Assembly: GCA_009192285.1 (NCBI GenBank)
Contig: WBVU01000003.1
Location: 1,891,973 to 1,955,972, forward strand
From: Morchella semilibera
Taxonomy: Eukaryota; Ascomycota; Pezizomycetes; Pezizales; Morchellaceae
Direction: 5' to 3'
DNA: 64,000 nucleotides
Of the stretch, positions 32,401 to 57,660 are shown piece by piece (position 1 is the first letter of the stretch; each line of letters starts with the position of its first letter). A model generated the notes under the pieces. That model had not been told where the DNA came from, made no database searches, and saw only the letters and a list, made by a program, of their open reading frames with translations. The position numbers were made by a program, and so were the translations under genes.

Positions 32401-33015
32401 ATGTGATGTTCAACCACCTTTACCGGATCCCATTCAAACACTCGATTTTTAACTCTGCAAACGCTCTCCCCTTCAAAACCAAACCTCAGACCAATTCAAA
32501 ACTCGCCTCACCCCCTCGATTCATCGCGAGTGATAATCGATGACGATAAGGAAGATCTACCAAGCGCCAAGAGTCGATGACGTGAACCGACACTTCGCTG
32601 TGCTTGTATGGGGCCGGACGCGATCACAAAGAACTAATTCGCAAGAAAAAAGTTGTTATTAATAGGGTTGAATTGGGTCAAATTGATTTGATTACATTCT
32701 TCTCTCACTCACTTTTTTTTTTTTTTCCCCTCTGACCACCCCTTGCTCACGCTCTTTGTGTTTTGCTCGTAAAACCCCGTATCCCCCCAATATTATTAGG
32801 TTTTTGAGTCAGTACCAGCCCACGCCGTCTGTGTCAGTGGTCTGTGCAACGTAACACACAGACCTAGGACGCGACTTCCCCAGAGCTAACTGTGACCTTA
32901 CCTTACCTCCAGCCTTGTAAGCTCCTTATCCACCCCCCTCTCCCTCCATCCCCCCCCCCTCCAACCATGCTCTCCAACTAACAACCATAGTCTCTACCTA
33001 ACCGCCTCACTCGCA
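29477..33015. other. Intergenic region (3.5 kb)
   Basis: No gene seen. It contains G/T-rich degenerate repeats (about 29520-29655), a tandem GTGCG array of five units (about 30163-30187), homopolymer A and C tracts, four TACATGTA copies (30515, 31736, 31984, 32104), and a pyrimidine-rich stretch from about 32700 to 33000 that is probably the promoter and leader of the Rad2-type nuclease gene. Confidence 0.5.
30163..30187. repeat. Tandem GTGCG pentanucleotide repeat
   Basis: Five consecutive GTGCG units, immediately preceded by degenerate CGACG and ACAAC repeats. Confidence 0.8.
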
Positions 33016-36000
33016 ATGGGTGTCACTGGCCTTTGGACCATAATCCAACCGTGTGCCCGTCCTATCAAGCTCGAAACGCTCGCTAGAAAGCGACTCGCCG
33101 TTGACGCCTCCATCTGGATCTATCAGTTCCTCAAAGCCGTCCGTGACCGCGAGGGGAACGCGCTACGAAACTCTCATATCATCGGGTTCTTTAGAAGGAT
33201 ATGCAAGTTACTGTTTCATGGAGTGAGACCGGTGTTTGTGTTTGATGGAGGTGCACCAGCCTTGAAGAGGCAGACTATCGCTGGTAGAAAGTCTAGAAGA
33301 GAAGGAAGGAAAGAGGATGCTAGAAGAACCGCAGGAAGAATCTTGGCTCTGCAGGTGCAGAGAGAGGCGGAGAGGGAGAATGAGAGGAGAAAGAAGAGAG
33401 CTGTGGATGTGAAGGAGGGATGGGTAGATGTCACACACCAAGAGGAAGAGGAAGAGGTTATTCCAAAGGATGTAGTCTATGTGGACGAGTTGATGCAAAC
33501 ACCAGAACAAATCAAAAGGAATCGGCAGGGCGAGTTCAGAAAGACTGATCCCTACCATTTGCCAGATCTAGACACATCAATAGAAAATATGGGTCAGCCA
33601 AACGACCCTCGAATTATGTCGACGGAAGAGCTCGAAGAATACGCACGTCAGTTTCGAGGCGAGGAGGAGATGAGCGTTTACGACTTCTCAAAGATTGATT
33701 TTGACTCGCCTTTCTTCTGCTCTCTCCCTCCAGCTGATCGTTACAATATCCTTAATGCTGCTAGACTCAGATCACGTCTACGAATGGGTTTATCAAAAGA
33801 ACAACTAGATGCAATGTTCCCTAACCGCTTGGACTTTTCAAAATTTCAAATTGAGAGAGTTAAAGAAAGAAATGAGCTGACACAGCGTCTCATGAACCTC
33901 AACGGTGCCAATGAAGTGAATACGCTCGATATCGGCCGAGTCGCTAGCGAGCGAGGGAGAGAATATGTCCTTGTACGCAACGACGGAGTAGAAGGTGGTT
34001 GGGCTCTGGGGGTAGTTGGGCAGAAGGGAGATAGAGAAGGGGAACAGTCTAAACCAATTGTAGTAGACACCACAGAGAAACTGGAGGAAGATGCCATGGA
34101 TGATGATGAGGATGACTTTGAGGATGTACCAATTGAGGGTCTCAATAGACTTCCTAAGATTCATGTGGGATGGGGCAAAGAAGAGGAAGGGTCTGAAGAT
34201 GAAGAAGACGAGGCTTTCAATCCATTCGAAGATCCCGAGGCACAGATGCTTAGACGGGCTATATATGAGAGCCGAAAAGAGGCCTTTGGTAGCGGAAATT
34301 CCCGCTCAAAAGTGCTTGGAAAGGGCAAAGCTCCAGCTACTACATCATATACCCCAAATCCATTATTTCTGGGCGCAGATGAGGAAGATGATGACGATGA
34401 GTACTACAGCAACCCACTGTTCTCTCAGAAACATACCTCAAATACCCTCAGTGACGAAGAGGAAGAGTATGAGGGACAGTATCCACACGACGACGAGGTT
34501 CTCCAAGAAGCAATACGGATGTCTCTCGCAGTGCCGGGTTCAAGCTCAAGCTCACATCATCAAGTTAATGATGACTTCTCAACCAAAGATATATTCATAG
34601 GTCGAGACCTCAGCGATATTGCTGAGGAGGAGGAGGAGGACGAAGAGGAGGAAGAGGAGGAGATGGATGACGATGACGACGACGACGACGAAATTATTGG
34701 CAAAGGCAAAGGCATAGCGGTGGAAAGAAGATACATCCGAAGAGAACCAGTCCCAATCCTGCCGAAACCTGTCGATAATGGCGATGACGATCTCCAGAGA
34801 GCATTGGAAGAGTCAAGGCGCATGCATAATATGAAGCCAAGTGACCCGGGGTACAATAAGCCGGGACAGGGCAGCGGAGCTTCTACTACCACTGCTACCA
34901 GCTCGATGGCACCAGCCCCGAGCCTTTCGAATCCTTTTGGAGGATTACTCCCGTTTGAGTCATTAGATTTGAGTAAAAGCAAAAGTTTCTTGACCAAGAA
35001 GAAGGAGCTAGAGAAGAAAGAGCCGGAGAAGAGTGAAGGACCTAGCCCGAATGAGCCGAAACTAAAACATAAAGAGAAAGAATGGGGGCGGGAGAACCCG
35101 GATGAACCATCACTTCCACTCCCGCCATGGTTTGTCAATGAGACGAAAGACCTAAAAGAAGAAATGCAGAAAGCAAGCCGCGAGAAAGAAGGATACATCC
35201 TTGCGAAAAGGTTAGAGGACGAGAGAATCAAGATGGAAAGGGAGGAAAGGAATAGACGGGAAAGAGAAGACCTTGAAAAACAAAAGGAGGATGCAGTCTT
35301 GGTTGATAGCTCAGACGAAGATGATGTAATGGTTTTGGACTTTCCTACAAACGGTAAGATTACGATGGGCGATATAGCTGATAAAACTCGGGCTGTACCG
35401 CCTAAGACGATCTCTGACAAAGCTAGTTCAAGGAAAGGTGGTGAACCTCATGCTGGTGGTATTGGCGCTCTAGGAAGTGGTAAAGAGCTAGAGCGGGAAG
35501 ATAGTGGCCACGGAGGGGCTGCACTTTTAGCTAATGATGTGGCACGTCGAAATGCTGCTGCGATGGCACCAGGGGACTCGCCCCCGCCTCCGGATTTTGA
35601 GGAGCCAGATTTCCGTGATGCCACACCTCCCTTCGATGATGAAGAAGAAAGTGTCTACTCAGACCCCGAAGAAGACGCAACGCTTTTTCAATCCCTAGCC
35701 GCCGAGGCTGAAGAGCACGCTAGGTTTGCCGCTGAGCTAAACAATAAGTCTCAAGAACAGACACGCGAGGATTACGAGCGTGAGCTTAAATCATTGCGTG
35801 CACAGCAAGCCAAAGATCGCCGTGATGCCGACGAAGTTACCCAGGTCATGGTCCAGGAATGTCAACAGCTTCTTAAACTCTTTGGAATACCCTACATTAC
35901 CGCCCCCATGGAGGCCGAAGCACAGTGCGCGGAGCTCTTGAATCTTGGGCTTGTGGATGGAATTGTGACAGATGATTCGGATACATTCTTGTTTGGCGGA

Positions 36001-36924
36001 ACGAGAGTGTACAAGAATATGTTCAATCAGGCCAAGTTTGTCGAGTGCTATCTAGCAAGCGATCTAGAGAAGGAGTTTAGCCTAGATAGAAAAAACTTGG
36101 TCCGGATCGCACACCTACTAGGGAGCGATTACACGGAAGGACTGCCTAACGTTGGCCCAGTTACGGCAATGGAGTTGTTGGTTGAGTTTTCTGGTGACGA
36201 TGGCCTGGCGAAATTTCGGGATTGGTGGACTACAGTCCAGCAAGGGACTTCCAAGCCTACAGATGACGGGAATAACAAGTTTAAGAAGAAATTTGTAAGT
36301 TCGTTTCATAATTAATCAAGGAAGGGTCCTAACGATTTTCAGCGCAAAAACGCCACCAAAATCTTCCTCCCACCTTCATTCCCTGCGCCCGAGGTAGATG
36401 AAGCTTATCTGAACCCCGAAGTCGATAAAGACCCCTCCCCATTCGAATGGGGTGTTCCCGATCTCGAAGGGCTCCGCGACTTCCTCATGGCCACTATAGG
36501 CTGGTCGCAAGAGCGCACAGACGAAGTTCTTGTCCCCGTTATCCGTGATATGAACCGGAAGCAGGAGGAGGGTACACAGAGTAACATTACACAGTTCTTC
36601 GAGGGCAGCACTGGAGCCGGTGCGTTCGCGCCTAGAAAGCGTGCGGAAAACAAGAGTAAGAGGCTAGAGAGTGCTATGTCAAGTCTGCATGAGCAGGCCG
36701 TACGAAAACGAAAAGGCCAAGCTGAAGAAGCTGGTGAAGATGCTGATGAGGAAGAGGAGGTAGAGCCAAGGTCGAAACGGCAGAAGAGAGCCAAACCTAA
36801 AGCAAAGCTTAGGGGAAAAAGAAAGAACACACCTGACGAGGACGGGAACGGGTATCGGGAGGAGGGTGAGGAGGAGGTGGTAGAAAATGCGCCGAAAAGG
36901 CGACGGAGAGCAGCGAAAATTTAG
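33016..36924 (+). CDS. rad13: XPG/Rad2-family DNA repair endonuclease (Rad13/Rad2)
   Basis: Exons are 33016-36294 and 36343-36924, coding 1,286 residues; the 48-bp intron (GTAAGT, branch CCTAAC, TTTCAG) is phase 0. The enzyme makes the 3' incision in nucleotide excision repair. The N-terminal nuclease half begins MGVTGLWTII and includes DASIWIYQF and FVFDGGAPALKR (to about 100). The catalytic I-region begins near 962 with MEAEAQCAELL and TDDSD, followed by the helix-hairpin-helix GSDYTEGLPNVGP (about 1036). The very long acidic spacer between them (about 105-930) is the feature that separates XPG/Rad2 from FEN1 and Exo1. It carries three ubiquitin-interacting-motif-like segments near 404, 492 and 590. 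A PCNA-binding box, QSNITQFF, sits near 1172, followed by a basic nuclear-localisation-like tail. Confidence 0.93.
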
Positions 36925-47511: not shown

Positions 47512-49004
47512 ATGCATCGAACCTACTCTATGCGGCAGTCGAGGGCGCCTACCCAGTCGCAGATCGAGAAGCCGCCTCCTCCGCAAAGTTCCACCAAAGT
47601 TGGAAGATTGTTTGGAACCTCGAACTTAGGTTGGTAACAATTAAACGCCTTGTGTCAACAACTGCTTTGGTCTCTTGCGTTCATTTCGGCGTTCTTATAT
47701 CACTCATCACTTGGTTAATTCCTAATAAGTTATTGAAGCGAGCTTTCGAGGTAAAGGAGCATGCTGACGTTTTCATACCCCTTTGGAGCCTCTACAGGAC
47801 ATAATATTCGTAAATCTATGGCGGGTGCTTAGTAGGATTCTCGTTCCTATAGGGTTCCGTGAATGCATATCATACTGACAATGTAATTCTCGTCATAGCG
47901 GCCCGGATTTGTCTAAAAAGCTTGCCCAGCTTGTAAAGATGGAGAAGAATTTGATGCGATCAATGGAGCTTGTTGGACGCGAACGGCGTGAGGTCGCTCG
48001 ACAGCTCTCAATATGGGGCGAGGAGTGCGACGAGGATGTTTCTGATATTACAGACAAATTGGGCGTACTCATCTTTGAGGTGGGTGAATTGGAGGACCAA
48101 TTTATCGATCGTTACGACCAATACAGAGTCACTATCAAAAGTGTGCGAAACATTGAATCTAGTGTTCAACCTAGCCGTGATCGTATGTATATTCGTTGTC
48201 CAATACTTATGTTGTCCCACTAAACTTTTTAAAAACAGGCAAGCAAAAGATTACCGACCAAATCGCGCAACTCAAGTACAAAGACCCTACATCTCCAAAG
48301 ATTGTAGTGCTTGAACAAGAGCTTGTTCGTGCCGAAGCCGAATCACTTGTAGCTGAGGCGCAATTATCCAATATTACACGTGAGAAAATCAAAGCTGCAT
48401 TTACGTACCAATTCGATGCTCTCAGGGAGCACTCTGAGAAACTTGCTTTGATTGCCGGATACGGAAAACATCTATTGGATCTTGTGGACGACACACCAGT
48501 TACACCAGGTGAGACCAGGCCAGCCTATGACGGGTACGAAGCGAGTAAAAGGTATGTCATTATATTTTATCAATAATACTTGTATTTTTGTCTGATAGAC
48601 TTGCTATACATAGCATCATTCAAGATTGCGAGGATGCTCTCACGAACTGGGTCGAGGCTAAAGCCGCCGTCCGCTCCCGTCTTTCCCAGCGTGGGTCACG
48701 CCAACGCCGCACTCATGGCCGTGGTACCCGTGCTGGCGCCGGAGAAGGAGTATCTCTCGCCGGACAAGACCGCCCCATGCAGCGTAGTTCCGGCGAGTGG
48801 GTACCGGCAGACGAGCATCGTCGCACCCACCGTGAGAGCGATGATGGTTACGAAGATATTGCAGACGAAAATGGCCATAGTAGACGGTTAGACGGTCACG
48901 GAGCTCGTGGTATGCGTGGTGCCCACCATGGGGCCATCTTGAATAACGGCGGCACCGAACCCCATGCTCGAGATGGTGTACACGAGGAGGCACTCTCAGA
49001 TTGA
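47512..49004 (+). CDS. pil1: Eisosome core protein Pil1 (BAR domain)
   Basis: A consistent model has exons 47512-47633, 47899-48182, 48239-48551 and 48599-49004, coding 374 residues. Pil1 polymerises on the plasma membrane and forms the eisosome furrows. Conserved stretches are MHRTYSMRQSRAPT and GRLFG at the N-terminus, the helical BAR region with GPDLSKKLAQLVKMEKN, EDQFIDRYDQYRVT, SVQPSRDRKQKITDQIAQLK, VLEQELVRAEAESL and LSNITREKIKAAF, then PGETRPAYDGYEASK and a GEWVPA tail motif. The first intron (47634-47898) is long and might hide a small exon, because family members carry about 12 further residues (AFR-type) before GPDL. The reading frame ends at one TGA and then continues open for another 2 kb (see next entry), which is unusual for this gene. 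Confidence 0.88.
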
Positions 49005-49007
49005 CAG

Positions 49008-51520
49008 ATGTCGAACGCCGGCAGAAGTGGCGTGCCGACAAACGGTAAAGAGGGAAATGTAAGTTCTCGCAAGCGCGATAGTGGTATTGGCGGGATAGAC
49101 AGTGGCATGGGATATGGCCATAGCACTTCTGCTAGGACTGGTGGTGGTGGTATGAACCCTAGAGGGGTTACAAATGATGGAAGGTATACCTCTGGTACCA
49201 ACGGTACTATGGGTATAAGCAGGGGTTACGATAATGCACGTTCTAATAATTCTACTATACCCGTTCCTGTTTCTGGTGTTGGTCACGATTCTGTATTACA
49301 TGTTTCTCCCGGTGTCAAGGAATCTAATTCAAATTTGGCCCCTTATATGATTGATCGTGGTGGTGTCGGTCCGTATGGTCCTGGAACCGGCTACAGTATT
49401 GGATCCGGAACTCGGACGTACGCAGCGCCTCGTGAAAATTATGGCCTTAGTCCATATACTCAAAACGTAAACGAGGATCCATCCCGCTCTGGACATTCTG
49501 AACATCGAGCTGGTGAGATTCATACCGCCTCGAACCCCAAGGGCGGGCTATCTTACAGCCGTGATACCGCATCTGAGCTTGGCCTTGGCCCTAGTTCCTG
49601 TGGCGATAATCGGCCATACTACGCAGGCAATCAAGATCCCGGTAATAGGGATTACTCTGCCAGGGAAGCTTCTCCATCGACTAGCCAGGGTGTGGCTGGT
49701 ACTGCGGCAAGCGCGGCATCATATGTTGGGGATACAGCTGCGAGTGCGGCCACTTATGCTGGAGACGCAGCCATGGGCGCAGGATCCTATATGGCCGATA
49801 CTGCAAAGAGCGCGGTGTCTGCTATAAAGCCGATGGAAACCACAGCAAATGCAGCATCGTATGTTGGGGATACGGCGGCAAGTGCAGGTTCTTTTATAGC
49901 GGATACCGTCTCAGCTATGAAACCAATGGAGAAAGCAGCTAATGCAGCATCTTATGTCGGTGATACAACCGTGAATGCCGGGTCATATATGGTAGACACG
50001 GCCAAAGAGATGAGACCAATGGATACAGCGGCGAATGCGGCATCATACATCGCTGATACAGCGAGGAGTTTTGCTCCACCAGCTGGCCCTTCTTCGAACC
50101 TCCCGGCGGAAACCACCCCTGGGATCTACGATAGAAACTACTCCCTGGGTGATACTTCTGGTAATGACAGTCGCACGTACGATTCTAGTGACAGGGCTTC
50201 CATCACGCAGAAGGCAGAAGACACGGCGGTAAATGCAGCATCCTACGTGGCAGATACTGCTAAAGATCTTGCCCCCGGCATTGGCCTTACTTCGAGTACT
50301 GTCCCTAGTGCTAAAAGTACTTCGGGTGCTGTACCTCGTGGTTATGACATTGGCGCTGGGATTGGATTTGGGTCTGGAAATAGCTATAACACCCATCAAG
50401 CCCGCTCCCGCGGTATGCCTGGTAGTTTTGATGATAGCCATAGCAACTCTTATAACATCACGGGAATGGATGGGGGCGGTCCTAAGAGAGCAAATTCTGT
50501 TTCATATAGGGGAGGAGCGTATCTTTCAGGTCATGATGATGCAACTGTGAGGCGAGAATCTCCTTGGGATGTCGGTAGAGATGGGGGAAACAAAGCACGA
50601 ACGGGTCACCAACTTCGTCGAGAAAGCCTAGATCATGATAGAATAGAAAACGATCAGAGAGAGCGCGAGAGGGCGATGCCCGAGCGCACGGAGCGTGACA
50701 TGGGACGTGGGCGTATGGATAGGGAGCGCATAGATCGGGAACGAAATGATCCCAATCAGATGGGAGCATGGCCTGAACGACGTAGGTCCCTTGGTGAAAG
50801 ACATGTCATTACTAGAGACAAGGATGTGGCTACGTTGGACCCAAGTTCACAAAGGGGGCCCGCAATGCCGAGGACTTACGGAGCAGGTGGCCCCGGAGGA
50901 GGTACCCCCCGCGATGATGCCAGCCTCAAAGCTGAACGTCTCCGCGAGGAGTTAGAAAAAGAAATGCAGGAAACGCAGACCGAAGCTCTTAGGCTAGCAA
51001 GGGAAAGAGACAATAGAGGGGCTATAGGGGGGATCACTCGCAGAAAGTCGTCAGTCCCGGCCAGAAATATTCTTCCCTCGTTAGTCAGGACCCAGGTCCG
51101 CTCGATAGCAAGCTTGAAGAAGTGGGTTACATTCCTGGCGCTTTCGAGAATCCTAGACGTTCCGAAGCCACCAATGCTCAAGAAGCTCGCCCCAATAACC
51201 CTCTAGGCGCTAATATTGAGGCTGAGCGTGAAAGAGACTCTGAGAGATCTGTTCGCAGGTCATCTATGGATAGACATCCTGCCACTGATACAGGACATGG
51301 CTCTGGGCCTGGTGGGATGATGACTACCATGAGAGACGACCCGGAGTACCGCGATCAGAAACGGGATGATGGTGGATATGCGGTAACGAGTGAGAGGCAA
51401 AGGGAGGATGTCCAAGAAAATATCCAGAGCCAATTCGAGGGAGACGATGATGATGAAATACGGAGGAAAAGCTTGTTAGGAAGGGCAGCAAGCAAAGTGG
51501 GGAACTTGTTGAAGACCTGA
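49008..51520 (+). CDS. Long ORF in frame with Pil1 after one stop codon; LEA/amphipathic-repeat-like
   Basis: The Pil1 frame stops at TGA (49002-49004) and reopens immediately (CAG ATG) as a frame to 51206. Near 51050-51085 the sensible frame changes to one ending at 51520; a 38-bp intron (51047-51084) would join them in phase, giving about 824 residues, but the splice signals are weak. I do not recognise the family. Residues 1-225 are Gly/Ser/Tyr-rich. About 227-424 contain at least six repeats built on the units AASYVGDTA and GSYMADTAK, resembling LEA or synuclein-like amphipathic helices that bind membranes. After that comes a very charged Arg/Glu/Asp region with predicted coiled coil near the DDASLKAERLREELEKEMQE-type segment. 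The end (RRKSLLGRAASKVGNLLK) looks like a genuine C-terminus. There is no room for its own promoter, so it is probably part of the pil1 transcript. Confidence 0.6.
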
Positions 51521-52741: not shown

Positions 52742-52759
52742 GGTTATGAGCCCGGCTAG
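52742..52759 (+). promoter_or_regulatory. Primer-binding site, half-tRNA-iMet type
   Basis: The sequence GGTTATGAGCCCGGC directly after the LTR is complementary to the anticodon arm of fungal initiator tRNA-Met (GGGCTCATAACC), not to a tRNA 3' end. This is the half-tRNA priming mode described for Drosophila copia and yeast Ty5. Confidence 0.7.
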
Positions 52760-52869
52760 CTCTTATCTCTAAAAATATATTCAATCTATTTCTATCCTCA
52801 TTACCCTATCGAACGAAGCGTCCTCGAACGAAGCGATTACATAACGATCGAACCGAACGAACTACAACT

Positions 52870-55800
52870 ATGTCAACCAACAATACCACCCACTATGAAG
52901 ACTCTATTTATAGAGGGAAATATAGTTCAACCCCCAAGCTTACAGCAAGCAACTACCACCAATGGTGTCCTAAAATTAAAGTCATGCTTCAAGCTGAGGA
53001 CTGTTTGGATATTACCATGGGAGTAGAGCCTGCTCCCTCGCCTAATCGAAGCGCAGCGATGTCCGACTACCGTCGACGTGCGGGAATCGCAGCGGCTATG
53101 ATCAGTAGCTCTTGTAGCAATGAAGTTGGGCATTATATTAGTCAATTGACTAGTCCAAATGAAATGTGGGAGGAGCTAATGGCTAAAACAAATAATGCAA
53201 ACACACGAACCGGACACAACGCTCTTAAACGTCAATTCAATGCTCTCAAACCAGATGGAAACGATATTCATACCTGCTATATACCAAATCTTCTCAACAT
53301 AAAAGAACAACTTGCAAATACCGATCGACCGATTTCCGACGACGATCTGATCGACAAGATCTTAACCAGTCTTCCTCCTCACTACAATAGTATCATTGAT
53401 ATTATCAATCATAAATCACAAGATAAACTCACCATTGATTATGTCATTGATACACTGAAAAACTGGTCAATGGAATACAACAATCGTATTGCACAAGTTG
53501 GAGCATCTTCCAATTCCAGCACTACTATGACTGACATGAATGCGCTTATTGCGAACGGTAATACGAATGCCAACGAGCGGTACGGTCGACAAACCTATCG
53601 ACGATACGGTCGAGGCGGCCATCAACGATCGAGCAACGGTCGAAGACCTAACTATACCAACTATGTATGCTTTCATTGTACTGAGAAAGGACACATCATT
53701 TCAGACTGTCCCTTGAAGAAAAAGGCAGAAGAAATGAAGGCCAAATTCAGAAAGTCTAGGGATACCCCATATCATCAGCGCAACGCACGAAACGATCACG
53801 TACGAAGCGATAATGCGACAAACGATAACGAACTACAATCGTTCGATAACGTACGACAACGATTGAACAGTGGAGAGGCATCTATTGCTTTAGGTGCTCA
53901 GGCATTAATGGTATCTTTTGGCAGAAACACAGAAACAATAAGTACAGAGTGGATTCTGGATTCTGGTGCCACACATCACTTTACAAGAGATATAGATATA
54001 TTTGTACCAGGTACATTAAAGAGGTTGGAAAAGAACTTTGATGTTGGGCTTGGAGATGGTTCTAAGATTCCAGCTGTAGGAGTTGGAAAGGTTGACTTTA
54101 TGATACCTGGCTTTACCTTCAGATTGGAGGTTCTATTTGTCCCTCAAATTCACACCTCTCTCTTATCAGTCAATAAGCTGTCTGAAGATTATATTATAAC
54201 CTTCCAGAAAGGTACCTGCACGATCGCGTCCCGATCGACAAACACGTCCCGATCGACGAACGATAATCGATTTTCTTTCCAACAGATTGCTGGAGTCTAT
54301 AAATTAAAACACAATAGCTATAGAGCAAATATACATCATACTCCCATGACTGCTGCTTCTGCTGTTGTCGATGTCGATATGTTACGGTCGGAACGATCGC
54401 TATCGCTACAATCTCAATCGTCCGAATCGTCTCGACTACCCGAACCGTCCAAGCCGTACGAAGTGTCAACTACATTACCAACACTATTGTCAGCTGCCGC
54501 TATACCTCCTATTAACAGTATCAAAACTCTTGAATTATGGCACAAAAGACTTGCTCATCTCAACCTCCATGATGTCAAGAATATCATTCCTATACCCTCC
54601 ATTGAAGAACCAAACAATCATCCTTGTACAGTTTGCATTAAAGCCAAACAACAAAGGAAATTCGTTCGCATTCCCGTTCGACGAGCGACACGTCCGTTCG
54701 AGTTAATTCATTCTGATCTATGTGGTCCTATCAGTCCTCTCTCATTCTCTGGAAAGAAATATTTTATCATCTATATTGATGATTATTCCAGAGCTGTGTT
54801 TGTCTATTTCCTACATACAAAAACATCCAATGAAATTGTTTCTACCTTTCAGGAATTTCTGTCCAGAGTTGAGGCATTATTTCCGAACGCAACGTTCGCT
54901 CGATTCCGTTGTGATAATGGAAGAGGAGAATATGACAACAGCCTTATGAGAGGGATTCTCAGAGTTTATGGAATTTCCTTTGAACCTTCACCACCATATA
55001 CTCAGCATAAAAATGGAGTCAGTGAAAGGATGATTAGGACACTGGTAACCAAGGCAAGATCAATGATGATTGATAGTAAGGTGGAAATGGAGTTTTGGGC
55101 TGAAGCAATTAATACTGCAACCTATCTTCACGAACGAACGCCAACGAGCTCGAACGATGGCGCGACTCCGTACGAACGCTTATGGGGAAAGAAGCCAGTC
55201 TATCATCATCTTAGAAGATTTGGTTGCTCAGCTCATAAGTTGATTCCCAAAGAACAAAGAGCAAATAAGTTCTCATCAAGATCCAGAGAATGCATGATGC
55301 TGGGGTATGTGCATGATACAACCAAAATTTGGAAGCTTTGGGATCCAGTTAGGAAATGCACAATCCATGCCTCAGATGTTGTGTTTGATGAAAATTCAGT
55401 TGTCGGAACGCACGACAGCGAACGTAACGAAATCGAAGATACCCCTGCATTAAAGGAATGTTTCCCAGAAATGGATGGATATGAGTTTCCAGATGAGGAC
55501 TCTCAAATAGACTATGAACTTGTTCCTATCAGTTCTAATAGCTCTATTAATTCCGTCGTCGATACGAAGTCAGCCGTTAAGTCTGGTGCGCTGGATGTGC
55601 TTCCATCAGTTACCCCTGCACTGGCTGAGGTGCAAGTTATTGGGGCTGAAAAAGGTGTTTCCGTATCTCATGATATGAAGAGTACTAGTTTCCAGCAAGT
55701 AGCTGATGCCATCCAGACAGTGGGCCCAACTGTGGATGAAGGCTCTAGTGAGCAACCTGAGTTGAGACGTTCGGGCGGTGACGACCGTGAATCACGAACG

Positions 55801-57660
55801 CGTGTACTTCGACGTTCGCTTCGTCAACGAATCGCTTTACCGGTTCGTGCGAACGCAGCGACTGTAGATGAAGCAGGTGAACCAATTAGCTACTGGGAAG
55901 CCCTTTATCATAGTCAGTGCAATGAGTGGAAGGTTGCCATGAGAGAAGAATTCTCATCCCTTATTGATAATCAGACTTGGTCTTATGTGCCAGTGGAAAA
56001 TGTCCCTTTTGATAAGACAATTATTGACTGCAAATGGGTATATAAACTCAAGATTAATCCTAATGGAAGTAGGAGATACAAAGCTCGTCTTGTTATTAAA
56101 GGCTTTCAACAAGTTGAAGGTTTGGACTTCGATGAAACGTTCGCTCCAGTCGCAAAGCTTGTGAGCTTTAGGTCTTTGATAGCGATCGCGGCCGAACGTG
56201 GCTGGCGAGTTGAACAAATGGATGTGGTAACTGCTTTTTTAAATCCCCCTGTTATGGAAGATATATATATGCACTTACCTCAAGGTTATGGTTGGCTTGC
56301 TTATACGAACGAGACGATCGATGCGAACAACGGTCCAATCGATGACGATCGAAGCGATAGAAAACCAAAACAGGTCTGTAAACTACAGAAAGCACTGTAT
56401 GGTTTGAAACAGGCACCCAGACTATGGTATCAGGATATAGATACCTATTTTATATCAATTGGTCTAATACAATCGAACTTCGATCCGAACGTTTATCGAT
56501 CCGACGCGCGCGACATGATCGTTCTTCTATATGTTGATGATATCCTCATTACAGGATCAGATAACACCAAGATTCTTGCTCTTAAACAGAAATTGAAGGA
56601 ACGATATCGAATGACCGACCTCGGTAGCGCACGACAATATATCGGTATCGATATCGAACGTAATGAAGGGGTTATTGAAATAAGTCAAACCAGGTTTATC
56701 AACAATCTGCTGAAAAAATATGGAATGGAGGATTGCAAATCTGTTTCAACTCCTATGGAACAGGGCCTATCGCTCCGCCGCGAACGATCGATTGAGAGCG
56801 AATCGAACGATACGATCGAGTTCAAAAAGGATTATCAATCATTGATAGGATCTTTAATGTGGTTGATGATAGCTACAAGACCTGATTTGGCATATACTGT
56901 CTCTACTTTAAGCCAATTCAACTGCAATCCTACATCAGAAGCATGTTCAGCTGCCAAAAGAGTCTTGAGATATCTACAAAACACCAAGTACTTAGCTTTA
57001 ATATATGGTACTAAAACGAACGATCGATCCGTTACCGCTCGCACCGTTATTTCTGACTCTACCTCGTTCGACCACGATACGTTCGATACTCCATCAACCT
57101 TATCTAACGATCGAGAAACGAACGATACTACTTTTAACGTTAACGATCGAGCGATATTAGCAACTGGATATTCAGATTCAGATTGGGCTGGTGATAAAGA
57201 AGATAGAAAGTCTACATATGGTTATGTATTTACTTTCTGTGGTGCAGCCATTTCATGGAAATCTCGGAAATCATCTGTAGTAGCATTATCTACGACCGAA
57301 GCAGAATATGTTGGGTATTCTGAGGCTGCTAAGGAAGCTATATGGTTGTCACGACTCCTTCAAGAAATACAAGCAACAGGAGCATGGCTACAGACTCCTC
57401 AATTGCTATATGGTGATAATCAAGGAGCTATAGCACTTGTTGAGAATCCGAAATTTCACGAACGAACGAAGCATATCGATATACGCTACCACTTTGTCAG
57501 ACAAGCACACCAAGAAGGGACTATAAAGCTACAGTATATACCAACAGCTGAAATGATTGCCGATATTATGACCAAACCACTGCCTAAATACACTCACTGG
57601 AAACATGTTTCTGGATTGGGCCTGTTCATGCAGAACGAACGCAACGAACGAAGCGACTGA
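52870..57660 (+). CDS. Copia Gag-Pol polyprotein, 1,596 aa
   Basis: One frame encodes, in copia order, Gag (UBN2-type, 1 to about 260) with a CCHC zinc knuckle (CFHCTEKGHIISDC, about 267-280); an aspartic protease with active site DSGATHH (about 364); the GAG-preintegrase HHCC zinc finger (LWHKRLAHLN and CTVCIKAKQ); the integrase DDE core (from about 611, with DDYSRAVFVYF and DNGRGEY); reverse transcriptase with YVDDILITG (about 1221); and RNase H (SDSDWAGDKEDRKS, TEAEYVG, about 1433). Integrase precedes reverse transcriptase, which separates copia from gypsy. No frameshift separates gag and pol. The frame is interspersed with about eighteen patches very rich in CG dinucleotides, often coding Asn/Glu/Arg/Ser/Asp runs, unlike the AT-rich rest of the gene. 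Confidence 0.97.
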   Translation: MSTNNTTHYEDSIYRGKYSSTPKLTASNYHQWCPKIKVMLQAEDCLDITMGVEPAPSPNRSAAMSDYRRRAGIAAAMISSSCSNEVGHYISQLTSPNEMWEELMAKTNNANTRTGHNALKRQFNALKPDGNDIHTCYIPNLLNIKEQLANTDRPISDDDLIDKILTSLPPHYNSIIDIINHKSQDKLTIDYVIDTLKNWSMEYNNRIAQVGASSNSSTTMTDMNALIANGNTNANERYGRQTYRRYGRGGHQRSSNGRRPNYTNYVCFHCTEKGHIISDCPLKKKAEEMKAKFRKSRDTPYHQRNARNDHVRSDNATNDNELQSFDNVRQRLNSGEASIALGAQALMVSFGRNTETISTEWILDSGATHHFTRDIDIFVPGTLKRLEKNFDVGLGDGSKIPAVGVGKVDFMIPGFTFRLEVLFVPQIHTSLLSVNKLSEDYIITFQKGTCTIASRSTNTSRSTNDNRFSFQQIAGVYKLKHNSYRANIHHTPMTAASAVVDVDMLRSERSLSLQSQSSESSRLPEPSKPYEVSTTLPTLLSAAAIPPINSIKTLELWHKRLAHLNLHDVKNIIPIPSIEEPNNHPCTVCIKAKQQRKFVRIPVRRATRPFELIHSDLCGPISPLSFSGKKYFIIYIDDYSRAVFVYFLHTKTSNEIVSTFQEFLSRVEALFPNATFARFRCDNGRGEYDNSLMRGILRVYGISFEPSPPYTQHKNGVSERMIRTLVTKARSMMIDSKVEMEFWAEAINTATYLHERTPTSSNDGATPYERLWGKKPVYHHLRRFGCSAHKLIPKEQRANKFSSRSRECMMLGYVHDTTKIWKLWDPVRKCTIHASDVVFDENSVVGTHDSERNEIEDTPALKECFPEMDGYEFPDEDSQIDYELVPISSNSSINSVVDTKSAVKSGALDVLPSVTPALAEVQVIGAEKGVSVSHDMKSTSFQQVADAIQTVGPTVDEGSSEQPELRRSGGDDRESRTRVLRRSLRQRIALPVRANAATVDEAGEPISYWEALYHSQCNEWKVAMREEFSSLIDNQTWSYVPVENVPFDKTIIDCKWVYKLKINPNGSRRYKARLVIKGFQQVEGLDFDETFAPVAKLVSFRSLIAIAAERGWRVEQMDVVTAFLNPPVMEDIYMHLPQGYGWLAYTNETIDANNGPIDDDRSDRKPKQVCKLQKALYGLKQAPRLWYQDIDTYFISIGLIQSNFDPNVYRSDARDMIVLLYVDDILITGSDNTKILALKQKLKERYRMTDLGSARQYIGIDIERNEGVIEISQTRFINNLLKKYGMEDCKSVSTPMEQGLSLRRERSIESESNDTIEFKKDYQSLIGSLMWLMIATRPDLAYTVSTLSQFNCNPTSEACSAAKRVLRYLQNTKYLALIYGTKTNDRSVTARTVISDSTSFDHDTFDTPSTLSNDRETNDTTFNVNDRAILATGYSDSDWAGDKEDRKSTYGYVFTFCGAAISWKSRKSSVVALSTTEAEYVGYSEAAKEAIWLSRLLQEIQATGAWLQTPQLLYGDNQGAIALVENPKFHERTKHIDIRYHFVRQAHQEGTIKLQYIPTAEMIADIMTKPLPKYTHWKHVSGLGLFMQNERNERSD

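Follow-up and report, generated by a model that had tools for sequence, protein, structure and literature searches.

The gene for the eisosome protein Pil1 on contig WBVU01000003.1 of Morchella semilibera (assembly GCA_009192285.1) is followed, one codon after its stop, by a second open reading frame (ORF2) of 732 codons in the same frame. Both lie on the plus strand of a 64,000-nucleotide (nt) stretch, here called the window, to which the coordinates below refer. The gene arrangement is real and unusual. The best reading, to which we give a probability of about 0.42, is that one bicistronic mRNA carries both cistrons and that ORF2 is translated by stop-coupled termination-reinitiation. We infer both the shared mRNA and the reinitiation step from features of the sequence.

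A start codon follows the Pil1 stop

The sequence at 48999-49010 reads GAT TGA CAG ATG, as the initial annotation had it. The junction proper, TGA CAG ATG (49002..49010), consists of the Pil1 stop, a single codon and the start of ORF2 (49008..51206), which is in frame with the last Pil1 exon and has no family assigned. From 49005 the frame runs without interruption up to the stop whose last base is 51206, giving 733 codons including CAG and, in agreement with the earlier count, 732 from the ATG at 49008. By comparison, the longest stop-to-stop frame in each of 20 simulated 64-kb sequences, generated with a first-order Markov model trained on the window, measured 153-254 codons. The further claim of a 2.5-kb ORF reaching 51520 has to be revised, as the single frame covers only 2.2 kb and 51520 is attained only with a -1 frame change.

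Finding the same frame open before and after a stop is not unusual in itself: the 264 kb examined contain 11 same-frame ORF pairs split by one stop (at least 100 codons, then at least 150). The Pil1 pair has the longest second ORF among the 11 and is the only one with ATG as the second codon after the stop; in the others the first ATG has index 9 to 77, or there is none. Methionine accounts for 22 of the 733 residues in the ORF2 frame, which puts the chance of such an adjacent ATG at about 6%.

Two further ORF arrangements of related form were seen. An XPG-type nuclease ORF at 32896-36921 has 1139 codons and then 202 open codons in the same frame past a TAA at 36313, with its XPG_I match before that stop. 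At L018:843-4717 (minus strand), ORFs of 563 and 729 codons, without a Pfam match at E 0.1, overlap as ATGA; this may be a second stop-start candidate in the genome, a one-base indel or an intron.

ORF2 is protein-coding

ORF2 is a real protein-coding frame under protein-level selection, because its frame-0 codon scores, its long stop-free stretch and the mostly third-position differences among its repeats all point the same way. Codon scores, derived from 33 long ORFs and of modest power, rank frame 0 best of three in the blocks 49005-49097, 49005-50102 and 50103-51010; in windows 49080-49230 they are negative, yet still the best of the three frames. Over the 228 codons of 49005-49690, frame 0 contains no stop and the other plus-strand frames contain 6 and 22.

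The repeats described in the initial annotation are real: seven DNA copies of a 46-nt unit, encoding NAASYVGDT-type segments, form an array at 49700..50267 on the plus strand. Pairwise comparison of the copies (7 x 14 codons) gives proportions of nonsynonymous (pN) and synonymous (pS) differences of 0.202 and 0.742 in frame 0, a ratio of 0.27; the two shifted frames give 1.53 and 0.98. Identity by codon position is 0.83, 0.74 and 0.38 for first, second and third positions. The copies were picked by DNA likeness and their 21 pairs lack independence, but this does not account for the contrast between frames.

The Pil1 gene

A model assembled by hand and by script places Pil1 in five plus-strand exons between 47512 and 49004, encoding 379 amino acids. 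Exon 1 (47512..47629) begins with the ATG at 47512 in the context CCAAAAATG. Exon 2 (47798..47831), a microexon of 34 nt, supplies a segment that is conserved in yeast Pil1 and would otherwise be missing; exons 3 (47899..48182) and 4 (48239..48551) follow. Exon 5 (48614..49004) contains the end of the Pil1 domain, a 116-residue tail and the TGA at 49002-49004. The predicted protein matches the Pfam Pil1 family (PF13805) with E 2.2e-128 over profile positions 1-263 of 265, a full-length domain match, and a search of PDB chains returned the yeast Pil1 and Lsp1 structures with E 5.2e-128 and 5.9e-123. Because it is similar in length to yeast Pil1 (339 residues) and Lsp1 (341 residues), the TGA at 49002 may well be the natural end of an intact, normal-sized protein. 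All four introns have a GTNNG donor, a CTRA site 15-30 nt before the end and a YAG acceptor, with a G+C content of 24-42%. The conserved N-terminal segment requires the microexon at 47798-47831, which automatic annotation could miss.

Searches of the genome (56.8 Mb, 23 contigs) found one copy only of ORF2 and its Pil1. Contig C1 carries another gene of the Pil1 family, a single frame of 359 codons with no ORF of at least 80 codons in the 1.26 kb examined downstream. Pil1 profile scans of prokaryote genome contigs and of viral contigs gave no match, as expected of fungus-free collections. Besides Pil1 and the intron-bearing genes, the genome has a Pfam match to Spc7, and actin-family matches on contigs C9 and C10 have nearly the same coordinates and identical scores, as if two haplotypes had been assembled.

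One transcript or two

The 100 nt before ORF2 contain 31% G, compared with 9% in the Pil1 leader. ORF-internal windows (n=42) average 28%, and the leaders of 14 other long ORFs, not every first ATG of which need be a true start, range from 7 to 30%, three of them at 28-30%. The maximum C+T content over 25 nt, a measure of pyrimidine tracts, is 100% upstream of Pil1 and 80% in its last exon. None of the seven polyadenylation-like hexamers sought occurs within 48614-49244, and one is found at 49245; downstream of 51520 the sequence becomes T+C-rich and G-poor (11% G). In composition, the stretch ahead of ORF2 resembles coding sequence, and the junction is without leader-like or terminator-like sequence. 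For this last reason Pil1 and ORF2 are probably on one transcript, which agrees with the earlier remark that there is no room for a separate promoter.

ORF2 could instead be an ordinary separate gene, with its promoter and leader within the last Pil1 exon, or within ORF2 itself if translation starts later; the next in-frame ATGs are at 49107, 49152 and 49209. The negative frame-0 codon scores of windows 49080-49230 would suit a separate gene. There is also a precedent in mushrooms, where cistrons on polycistronic transcripts are transcribed alone as well (PMC4503453). We nevertheless regard an internal promoter as unlikely in view of the 31% G before ORF2, the lack of a pyrimidine tract like that of Pil1 (80% against 100% C+T), the hexamer-free interval 48614-49244 and the 228 stop-free codons from 49005.

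Proposed reinitiation and possible stop-codon readthrough

Under stop-coupled reinitiation, a mechanism that the initial annotation did not list, both cistrons would belong to a single transcription unit. Pil1 would be translated normally and terminate at the UGA at 49002, where an unreleased fraction of ribosomes would shift by three nucleotides and restart at the AUG at 49008. The result would be a separate protein of roughly 730-840 amino acids at a level tied to that of Pil1, in place of the two Pil1 isoforms proposed in the initial annotation. This repeat-bearing product, which we infer to be probably largely disordered, may act in association with eisosomes or close to them, since its production would be linked to that of Pil1. 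Scanning from the cap to 49008 is not plausible, since the spliced Pil1 coding sequence contains 20 ATGs, its own start counted.

Alternatively, a fraction of ribosomes may decode the UGA at 49002 and produce Pil1 with a tail of more than 700 residues, in which case some subunits of the eisosome lattice would carry a long cytosolic arm. The same frame on either side of the stop is expected of readthrough, and only one time in three of reinitiation. Conversely, reinitiation leads one to expect an ATG 3 nt past the stop, otherwise a coincidence of about 6%. Weighed together, the two observations perhaps favour reinitiation by about three to one, as a matter of judgement and not of measurement. 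The initial annotation had pointed to UGA followed by C as a leaky context, and it is so called for Sindbis virus. However, the fungal motif in the same paper is UGA CU(A), with efficiency set mainly by the two bases directly following the stop (PMC4207609), whereas the sequence here is UGA CA. A stable RNA structure downstream assists readthrough in some cases. Three predicted folds around the junction have z scores of -1.52, 0.02 and 0.17; the first of these, at 49005-49104, is only slightly better than shuffled sequence, 17 of 200 shuffles being as good. Readthrough is thus compatible with the shared frame, but UGA CAG, the absence of a standout structure and the adjacent ATG make it a poorer fit than reinitiation, and we consider it improbable.

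Several observations, the shared frame among them, weigh against reinitiation on a shared transcript. Position -3 of the ORF2 ATG is a C, which occurs in 1 of 14 sampled ATGs. The G content before ORF2 is barely above the top of the 14 sampled leaders (31% against 30%), and in the windows starting at 48960 and 48990, at the junction, another frame scores slightly above frame 0. The long-read set of an ascomycete, Neurospora crassa, contained no polycistronic transcripts (PMC4503453). On the side of reinitiation there are precedents. Expression of a second ORF through a 9-bp linker has been obtained in yeasts and in Aspergillus nidulans, with reinitiation tested in Saccharomyces cerevisiae, but a bare stop codon without the linker yielded no second protein (PMC10352335), and the TGACAG of the Pil1 junction is not known to work like that linker. 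A further precedent is 80S reinitiation in an activated S. cerevisiae strain, which becomes weaker as the spacer lengthens through 10, 30 and 50 bp but required a strain with poor stop recognition (PMC11952965).

A possible single long Pil1 protein

Less likely again is an undivided long Pil1, with the TGA arising from a consensus error or a strain mutation, or being spliced out in an unusual intron. This gene may contain a further assembly fault, at 51017-51206, and 81 frame-keeping GT-AG pairs could skip the stop, the best of them a near-miss at 48797-49024. No single indel, however, could produce a stop flanked on both sides by the same open frame, and a substitution would be needed. At 379 amino acids Pil1 is already of normal size, and the second Pil1 gene likewise ends as one frame with no further ORF of the length sought in the sequence examined beyond it.

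Introns that would skip the stop are poorly supported when judged by the four introns of Pil1, a small yardstick. Of 30 stop-removing GTNNG...YAG pairs (40-320 nt, any frame), 0 have CTRA at a distance of 8-60 nt from the end, against 4 of 4 Pil1 introns; the only CTRA sites between 48890 and 49330 are at 49243 and 49324. The named candidates have 53-58% G+C, well above the range of the Pil1 introns. Both segments put forward in the initial annotation have the coordinates and the frame-keeping lengths attributed to them, but neither makes a convincing intron. At 30 nt, the segment 48978-49007 would be a very short intron; TTGAC, the one motif in it resembling a branch site, starts 6 nt before the end. 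The 141-bp segment 48910-49050 has AAAG as its last four bases and lacks CTRA, only that same TTGAC being present, at 49 nt. The near-miss at 48797-49024 (GTGGGT...GGCAG, 228 nt) contains TTGAC, a weaker motif, 23 nt from the end. All other explanations taken together are very improbable.

Frame change near the end of ORF2

The real ORF2 protein probably leaves its first frame between 51017 and 51206. In this zone, open in the first frame as well as in the second, coding shifts by -1; the continuation in the other frame (51017..51520) ends in RRKSLLGRAASKVGNLLKT and a stop. Codon scores track the change, with an optimum that is flat over 51017-51077; a shift placed near 51025 scores 34.4, against 28.9 at 51122. 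Our first guess is a one-base assembly indel, because the flat optimum spans a run of six G at 51027-51032, and we consider it more likely than an intron. The alternative is an intron at 51122-51258, the only one of 111 GT-AG candidates with every feature counted (GTGGGT donor, CTRAY 48 nt before the end, CGCAG acceptor). It ranks below the indel because its inside is coding-like (+6.5 in the second frame over 45 codons, -2.6 in the first), because 51033-51121 already scores 4.0 in the second frame against -0.1 in the first, and because its G+C content of 52% exceeds the 24-42% of the Pil1 introns. The change may also be a programmed frameshift. A Ty1/copia polyprotein frame of 1636 stop-free codons (52750-57660) lies 1.2 kb downstream of ORF2.

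Properties of the ORF2 product

The likeness to LEA proteins or synucleins suggested in the initial annotation is weak. At E 1, the Pfam search of ORF2 returned neither family, and only Grg1 with E 0.002 and 18.7 bits, below the cut-off of 25; NCBIfam, a prokaryote library, and the PDB chains gave no match at the same threshold. Grg1 has no match at E 10 across the whole genome, and terms for Grg1/CCG-1 occur 0 times in the available part of a study of Neurospora eisosome composition (PMC7533531). Eisosome1 (PF12757) is absent from the Pfam matches of ORF2, the one match in the genome being on contig C4. The genome contains no paralogue of ORF2 beyond a chance-level match (E 1.21).

The repeats recur in the protein at spacings of 11 and 31 residues, with identities of 34/113 at lag 11 and 35/93 at lag 31. 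The idea that they bind membranes also finds little support, as they are alanine-rich and slightly acidic and have a low hydrophobic moment. Over 124 repeat residues the best moment is 0.196 at 104 degrees, a value reached by 0 of 2000 shuffles (maximum over 90-107 degrees), but it is only 0.02 at 98.2 degrees, the angle of an 11/3 helix. In 18-residue windows the repeats have moments of 0.06-0.38 and net charges of -2 to +1; the N-terminal region of Pil1, for comparison, has a moment of 0.55 and a charge of +3. Better candidates for membrane binding would be found at the end of ORF2: RRKSLLGRAASKVGNLLK in the second frame (moment 0.41, charge +6) or, if the first frame is used to 51122, LPSLVRTQVRSIASLKKW (moment 0.48, charge +4). 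It is its gene position that suggests ORF2 may be linked to the eisosome.

Implications

More broadly, one mRNA of a eukaryotic scaffold gene may yield two outputs through one stop: Pil1 itself, together with either a second eisosome protein coupled to it or a rare, giant-tailed Pil1 that readthrough would add to the lattice at a fixed ratio. We hold this for about evenly balanced, and below the sum of reinitiation and readthrough because it includes a role at the eisosome. If true, the amount of a new protein would be tied to the amount of eisosome scaffold, ORF2 would be a candidate eisosome partner unnamed by the profile libraries searched, and the locus would offer a natural junction for measuring reinitiation against readthrough in fungi. 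It would also add a native cellular example, from a fungus, of two long proteins translated by stop coupling. Most other known stop-coupled cases are viral, engineered or based on upstream ORFs. Few native fungal cases are known, Glarea IGG1 being one, as cited in PMC10352335. Among the matches listed, no bicistronic or readthrough pil1 gene was found in the open-licence literature.

Comparison with known systems

The first cistron matches the Pil1/Lsp1 eisosome proteins (PF13805; PDB 8qb7, 8qb8) over the whole domain. In contrast, the second has no counterpart in the families searched, the Eisosome1 match lying elsewhere in the genome.

Genes that use UGA CU(A) to make peroxisomal isoforms (PMC4207609) share with the Pil1 locus a UGA followed by C and an open frame beyond it. 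They differ in having CU where the locus has CA, and their extension supplies a C-terminal peroxisomal signal, whereas here it exceeds 700 codons.

The polycistronic readthrough transcripts of mushrooms (PMC4503453; for Ganoderma, PMC11590231) likewise involve neighbouring genes on the same strand, on one RNA that is observed there and predicted here. The Ganoderma pairs are on average 434 bp apart, whereas Pil1 and ORF2 have no intergenic space, and the mushroom cistrons of PMC4503453 are also transcribed alone.

The bicistrons built on Glarea IGG1 and the optimised IGG6 (PMC10352335) share with the Pil1 locus two ORFs and a minimal spacer. In those bicistrons the second ORF depends on translation of the first, while for the Pil1 locus a shared transcript and an active linker are putative. 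Here both ORFs are coding and lie on the same strand; in contrast to IGG1 and IGG6, the spacer between them is 3 nt long and in frame.

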